Assembly (NCBI GenBank): GCA_018697675.1
Contig: JABINC010000002.1
Coordinates: 1 to 42,481, forward strand
Source of the DNA: Candidatus Peregrinibacteria bacterium
GTDB taxonomy: Bacteria > Patescibacteriota > Gracilibacteria > UBA1369 > JABINC01
DNA length: 42,481 bases
Direction of reading: 5' to 3'
The notes beneath the pieces are model-generated. The model saw nothing but the letters and a program-made list of their open reading frames with translations. It was not told where the DNA came from and did not search any database. Each line of letters opens with the position of its first letter. Position 1 is the first letter of the stretch. Positions 122 to 1,791 of the stretch are shown one piece after another. The translations under genes were made by a program, and so were the position numbers.

Positions 122-151
122 TTGACTACAAACTTTTCACTAAACTACAAT
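122..151 (+). promoter_or_regulatory. Sigma-70 type promoter for the S10 leader
   Basis: TTGACT at 122-127 and TACAAT at 146-151 are separated by 18 bases. The -10 box is followed by a GC-rich discriminator (GCGCCC). The same hexamers occur upstream of rplC with a 17-base spacer, which supports both calls. Expected transcript start is near 158. Confidence 0.7.
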
Positions 152-157
152 GCGCCC

Positions 158-262
158 ACAACAAAACGAGGTAACTGCAATGCTTTCAAAGTAATCAGCA
201 CACCTCCTCGCCTACTTCTTCGGAAATGGCGGGACATCCTCAAAACCTACCAAATAAGTTTA
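158..262 (+). promoter_or_regulatory. Structured mRNA leader of rpsJ with C(UUCG)G hairpin
   Basis: CTCGCC at 207-212 can pair with GGCGGG at 228-233 (one U-G pair), enclosing TTC/GAA closed by the very stable C(UUCG)G tetraloop (218-223). An alternative stem pairs CGAGG (167-171) with CCTCG (206-210) and would disrupt the first. ACATCCTC at 234-241 is exactly complementary to GAGGATGT at 266-273 and would open the downstream terminator. A GAGG followed by a 4-codon reading frame (ATG 180, TAA 192-194) could be a leader peptide. The arrangement suggests transcription attenuation; the ligand, perhaps a ribosomal protein, is inference. Confidence 0.5.
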
Positions 263-287
263 ACCGAGGATGTACTCGGTTTTTTTT
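263..287 (+). terminator. Intrinsic terminator or attenuator upstream of rpsJ
   Basis: ACCGAG (263-268) and CTCGGT (275-280) form a 6-bp stem with a 6-base loop, followed directly by seven T (281-287). It lies between the promoter at 122-151 and the rpsJ start at 323. It would therefore stop most transcripts before S10 unless the 234-241/266-273 pairing forms instead. The alternative is that it simply ends a short RNA of about 130 nt. Confidence 0.65.
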
Positions 288-322
288 AAAATTTCACACA
301 TAATAATTTAACCCTATATAAC

Positions 323-637
323 GTGTCACAAAAAATACGTATAAAAATCAGAGCATTCGATTACAAGATAATCGACTCTGCAACACAAACAATTATTGAA
401 AACGCTGAAAATACAGGTGCAATAATTGCAGGACCTATTCCACTACCAACTAAAATCGAGAAGTTCACAGTAAATAAATCTACATTCGTGAACAAAACTT
501 CTCGTGAACAGTTCGAACGCCGAACTCATCAACGTCTGATCGATATTACAGAAACTACTCCAAAAACAATAGATGCTCTGACAAATCTAGCACTCCCAGC
601 AGGTGTAAGTGTAGAAATTAAGATGATCGCTGAATAA
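323..637 (+). CDS. rpsJ: 30S ribosomal protein S10 (uS10)
   Basis: This is a full-length 104-residue S10, a head protein of the small subunit that also serves as NusE in antitermination complexes. The N-terminal [14 protein letters not shown] block and the [12 protein letters not shown] segment are typical of the family. It starts with GTG; no Shine-Dalgarno sequence is visible. In most bacteria S10 opens a long operon with L3. Here it is transcriptionally separated from L3 by an opposing gene that begins at the very next base after its stop codon, and it has its own promoter and leader. Confidence 0.97.
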
Positions 638-1762: not shown

Positions 1763-1791
1763 TTGACTCTACCATTTGCGATCCCTACAAT
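1763..1791 (+). promoter_or_regulatory. Main promoter of the rplC ribosomal operon
   Basis: TTGACT (1763-1768) and TACAAT (1786-1791) are separated by 17 bases, a near-consensus sigma-70 promoter. The discriminator is GC-rich (ACGCGGG), a feature that in other bacteria goes with growth-rate or ppGpp control of ribosomal promoters. Expected start is near 1798. Confidence 0.8.

Follow-up and report, generated by a model that had tools for sequence, protein, structure and literature searches.

A covarying leader RNA with alternative antiterminator and terminator helices precedes rpsJ in an order of Peregrinibacteria

The S10 gene (rpsJ, uS10) of a tiny uncultured bacterium (Peregrinibacteria) is preceded by a structured RNA leader, and it is probably controlled by this element as a ribosomal-protein (r-protein) leader through transcription attenuation, with S10 as the ligand. 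The DNA analysed (42,481 nt, hereafter the window) is part of a 1.46-Mb genome, and the nearest named relatives of its S10 come from Candidatus Peregrinibacteria and Gracilibacteria MAGs. The leader has a conserved structure and two covarying alternative helices, is linked exclusively to S10, and is coupled to S10's own promoter. We infer that S10 is the ligand, that it would switch its gene off, and where on the leader it would bind.

The leader lies behind a sigma-70-type promoter (Table 1), which is near consensus, as the first-pass annotation had claimed, and from whose position the transcript is expected to start near 157–159. The apical GCUUUC of hairpin P1 (182–187) is similar to the conserved G[C/U]UUUU loop of the leader family. 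Hairpin P2 abuts P1 directly, and its second pair is conserved as U-G or C-G. Its 6-bp stem, already recognised in the annotation, encloses UUC-UUCG-GAA (216–225, UUCG at 219–222). The weight placed there on a C(UUCG)G hairpin was not borne out: the loop is variable in the family, the sister species L025 has UACUCUAUCAAGAAU instead, and we rejected the UUCG tetraloop as a functional element. The complementarity that had been noted between ACAUCCUC and GAGGAUGU is perfect; the two strands form an 8-bp antiterminator that overlaps the terminator. The latter, first described with six pairs and seven T, has a stem of 6–7 bp and eight T (280–287). Hairpin P1, the invariant ACAAA, and the non-conservation of the UUCG loop had been missed.

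Table 1. Features of the rpsJ leader and its surroundings (positions in the window).
Feature	Positions	Strand	Remarks
Sigma-70-type promoter: TTGACT (122–127), 18-nt spacer, TACAAT (146–151)	122–151	+	10/12 matches
ACAAAA element, immediately 5' of P1	161–166	+	ACAAA (161–165) invariant in the 28-sequence core alignment
Hairpin P1, GAGGU...ACCUC	168–206	+	z −14.1 (covariation permutation)
Hairpin P2, CUCGCC/GGCGGG (207–212/228–233), 6 bp	207–233	+	97% of cells paired; z −11.7
ACAUCCUC, conserved ACA and antiterminator 5' strand (P3a)	234–241	+	
GAGGAUGU, antiterminator 3' strand (P3b)	266–273	+	overlaps terminator 5' arm and loop
Intrinsic terminator AACCGAG-GAUGUA-CUCGGUU (262–281; stem 262–268/275–281) and T-run	262–287	+	−9.9 kcal/mol
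rpsJ (uS10)	323–637	+	GTG start; PF00338, E 1e-33
Convergent gene, weak metallophosphoesterase-like match	638–1645	−	abuts S10, separates S10 from rplC
Own promoter of the rplC-rplD-rplW-rplB operon	1763–1791	+	L3 start at 1917

We inspected the DNA upstream of S10 in 59 whole genomes from the order of the window, 54 of which contain S10, and in named public relatives. About half of the relatives have a promoter, ACAAAA, P1 with the G[C/U]UUUU loop, CUCGC..GCGGG (P2), and ACA, followed by a short segment complementary to the terminator 5' arm, a T-run, and the start codon. Their promoters are of a like kind and stand at an equal distance ahead of the leader. The architecture recurs before rpsJ across an order of Peregrinibacteria.

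The sensor hairpins are supported by compensatory changes. In the core alignment (A1, 28 sequences), 93.3% of the P1 and P2 cells pair, and 13 of the 15 pairs show changes on both sides. The covariation score is 0.665, compared with 0.196 after shuffling and at most 0.171 with the partners slid; the shuffles leave the relatedness among the sequences in place. RNAalifold, unprompted, returned the same two helices. The predicted fold of the window sequence consists of P1, P2, and the antiterminator and is more stable than shuffled versions (z −2.7 for 152–291 and −3.7 for 159–274); the comparative evidence for the structure is far stronger than these single-sequence values. We considered a pseudoknot in which ACAAAA pairs with the U-rich P1 loop and rejected it, since by our reasoning the linker seems too short to span a 9–10 bp stem and no covariation was apparent by eye.

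Both helices of the switch covary as well. For 34 leaders, segmented by hand with a resulting bias in favour of structure, each antiterminator strand was paired with the terminator of its own genome (−9.84 kcal/mol) or with those of others in 20,000 permutations across genomes (−6.29 kcal/mol; z −8.7; 0/20,000 as strong), which likewise leave relatedness in place. The terminator stem covaries in the same leaders (z −6.7), and two control pairings show no covariation in this permutation test. Comparison among related genomes, which the first-pass annotation had proposed as a check, finds covariation in P1, P2, antiterminator, and terminator, and its reading of the locus as attenuation by mutually exclusive helices is supported across species.

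With each state forced, the median energy difference between antiterminator and terminator is 0.4 kcal/mol in the 34 leaders, small enough that a modest ligand energy could tip the switch. Only 13 of them favour the antiterminator state, and the thermodynamic default is not uniform. When the growing window transcript has reached 274, the antiterminator is already present in the predicted fold and the terminator is still incomplete, which suggests read-through as the default state; because so few leaders favour the antiterminator energetically, this default would rest on folding order. The leader is a covarying 5' element before an r-protein gene, as in r-protein leaders generally, and its expression platform is a terminator that alternates with a covarying antiterminator in nearly isoenergetic states.

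In the relatives, the median distance from the end of the T-run to the S10 start codon is 18 nt (11–62), and in the window it is 35 nt, so the S10 mRNA must cross the terminator; the dependence of S10 expression on this terminator, which had been proposed earlier, agrees with this spacing. It is very improbable that the terminator instead closes an unrelated small RNA and that S10 is transcribed from a promoter behind it. The AT-rich stretch 288–322 could conceal a weak promoter, but a scan of the + strand between terminator and gene found no promoter-like match, making an S10 start downstream of 288 unlikely, the gap is short, and the leader stands immediately before S10 in all but three lineages. 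In these three (L054, L163, and L177), one small ORF with no assigned function lies between attenuator and S10. Five relatives (L035, L039, L040, L053, and L144) keep all or part of the sensor and no longer have the terminator segment, as though the DNA between antiterminator strand and terminator 3' arm had been deleted. The switch is dispensable or replaced in such relatives (L035, L039, L040, and L144).

We searched whole genomes with a covariance model of the leader (R1), using strict filters that miss weak members. There is exactly one match in the genome of the window and one in each other matching genome. At the level of the order, 38 of 89 genomes matched at E ≤ 0.01. At the level of the class, 36 of 353 matched at E ≤ 0.001, every one of them from the order of the window; the remaining 264 genomes, from elsewhere in the class, gave none. 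A sample of 380 genomes from the phylum gave 11 matches, again all from this order. S10 lies downstream of each of the 36 matches at E ≤ 0.001 and of 37 of the 38 at E ≤ 0.01; the exception (G060, E 0.005) is a false positive inside an lgt-like coding region.

The presence of the leader follows gene order. Among 53 genomes compared, with S10 counted as linked when within 110 nt of tuf, the leader is absent from 24 of 24 tuf-linked S10 genes, and R1 detects it in 24 of the 29 that are not linked (four of the 24 lie at contig edges, where linkage was judged from the remaining upstream DNA alone). The five unlinked genomes missed by R1 have, by eye, divergent or shortened versions. Part of this pattern may reflect shared ancestry; the resolution of the S10 tree is too low to tell a single origin of the leader from multiple origins.

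Downstream of the leader, S10 is the sole r-protein consistently within the regulated unit. In the window, rpsJ is the only gene between attenuator and convergent gene, and an opposite-strand gene also follows S10 in L005, L009, L010, L019, L028, L039, and L051; some genomes have non-ribosomal genes downstream on the same strand. In family f7 (L005, L010, L019, and L028), the opposite-strand gene is a DUF218 gene in four of four loci scanned. The rplC gene has its own conserved upstream sequence, even in genomes where S10 follows tuf. In these genomes, the convergent gene and the separate rplC-rplD promoter exclude L4 from the regulated unit and make S10, not L4, the likeliest ligand.

The region before rplC (L3) is a second conserved upstream region (1763–1916 in the window), also found in L021, L033, L038, L044, L050, L054, L003, L008, L012, and L036. 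It contains a near-invariant UAACCUCUA a few nucleotides ahead of the start codon and, in many genomes, blocks like CAAGUUAA and GAAAAUCUU. It is possibly a separate L3/L4 leader; MAFFT and RNAalifold returned no consensus fold for it. In L007, L024, L025, and L017, the rplC promoter has its −10 box within a GCCCGC..GCGGGC-like inverted repeat, as if this were an operator or a GC-rich start region.

In known r-leaders, the ligand is the product of a regulated gene (PMC7247131), which makes S10 the best guess for the ligand, and gene context likewise points to direct binding of S10 to the leader as a best guess. We regard it as unlikely that the same attenuator responds in trans to another r-protein, such as L4 or the head proteins S7 or S9: such a ligand would run against the rule just cited, and L4 in particular is not encoded in the S10 transcription unit of the window or of the relatives with a convergent gene and has the separate promoter and conserved upstream sequence of rplC-rplD, and the E. 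coli S10 region gives no match to R1. In favour of such a ligand, passages of a 2023 review of extraribosomal functions describe control of the E. coli S10 operon by uL4 through attenuation and a requirement for S7 and S9 in the entry of S10 into the ribosome (PMC10931766). According to the same passages, S10 enters the assembling 30S subunit as a tertiary binder (PMC10931766). This counts against S10, as the property is unusual in an autogenous repressor that binds RNA. Where they treat uS10, they name antitermination and coupling as its roles, with no autoregulation there (PMC10931766). The narrower proposal that the ligand is uS10, either on its own or as NusB-NusE, so that an antitermination factor acts as an autogenous regulator and represses its own gene via leader termination, is evenly balanced in our judgement.

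A signal other than an r-protein, either a metabolite or the translation of a short upstream ORF (AUGCUUUCAAAGUAA, 180–194), is an improbable input. The ORF has GAGG 8–9 nt upstream, and riboswitches too have compact stacked hairpins with conserved unpaired bases; against this, the motif is linked to a single ribosomal gene, and the ORF is missing from L025 and overlaps the conserved P1 loop, so we take it as incidental and rejected its product MLSK as a leader peptide.

Candidates for rRNA or boxA mimicry were also rejected. CUCGC..GCGGGACAnCUC, which we take to resemble E. coli 16S h41, is absent from Peregrinibacterial 16S, and a search for h39/h41 mimicry found no GCGGGACA in the organism's own 16S. 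As an h39 mimic, the P1 loop fares no better, since its 12-position profile ranks the h39 region 6–50, no better than other U-rich windows. For boxA, the same profile places the boxA-like sites of rrn at ranks 20–98 of about 1,850 windows, again no better than other U-rich windows.

With S10 as the preferred ligand, the leader could work as follows. RNA polymerase would start near 157 and transcribe a two-hairpin sensor, ACAAAA-P1-P2-ACA (about 161–236). In the absence of ligand, the nascent antiterminator strand (234–241) would capture the emerging terminator segment (266–273), the pairing would block the terminator (262–281), and S10 would be transcribed. Excess S10, by itself or together with a partner (NusB, for example), would bind P1/P2 and the adjoining ACA and keep 234–241 unpaired; the terminator would then fold, and transcription would stop at about 287, about 35 nt upstream of the S10 start codon.

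The leader resembles several known systems in part. The E. coli S10-operon leader, which responds to uL4, also stands before rpsJ and acts by conditional intrinsic termination; unlike there, rplD lies outside the regulated unit here and the sensor is the short P1-P2. An S10 r-leader has been predicted in Firmicutes (Yao et al. 2007, as cited in PMC7247131) and is likewise a predicted structured leader ahead of rpsJ; it belongs to another phylum and has no ligand established in the literature found. The Bacillus L20 and L10(L12)4 leaders work in a similar way, in that binding of the r-protein favours the terminator over the antiterminator, although gene and ligand differ and the likeness drawn here is one of mode of action. 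Their ligands are early rRNA binders with known mimicry; L20 is covered in the review (PMC10931766). Control of suhB by boxA and NusB-NusE (uS10) shares with our proposal the use of uS10 as an RNA-binding regulator; that boxA is described there as single-stranded and as working by translation block and Rho-dependent termination (PMC10931766). The leader has no match to boxA, which in the rrn of these genomes is about nnUCUUUnACA. Boxes resembling boxA (GCUCUUUAACA / GAUCUUUUACA) lie about 90–200 nt upstream of 16S in the rrn leaders L112–L123, which suggests that these bacteria use antitermination at rrn.

No Rfam 15 family matches at its gathering score (best sub-threshold match E 1.1), in agreement with the earlier remark that no known S10-leader class fits, and our literature search found no report of this element. 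With no match in Rfam or in the E. coli S10 region and no published report found, we file it as an r-protein leader with transcription attenuation, whose ligand is probably new.

The leader is therefore a strongly supported regulatory RNA family absent from Rfam 15, in the Patescibacteria, a branch with few known regulatory RNA families. It accompanies S10 where S10 leaves the tuf operon, so that regulation appears to be tied to gene order. With so short a two-hairpin sensor, the idea of S10 as its ligand is directly testable. Should S10 be the ligand, an antitermination factor that is also a tertiary 30S protein would autoregulate by terminating the transcription of its own gene, and this limiting of its own production would be a new regulatory role for S10.
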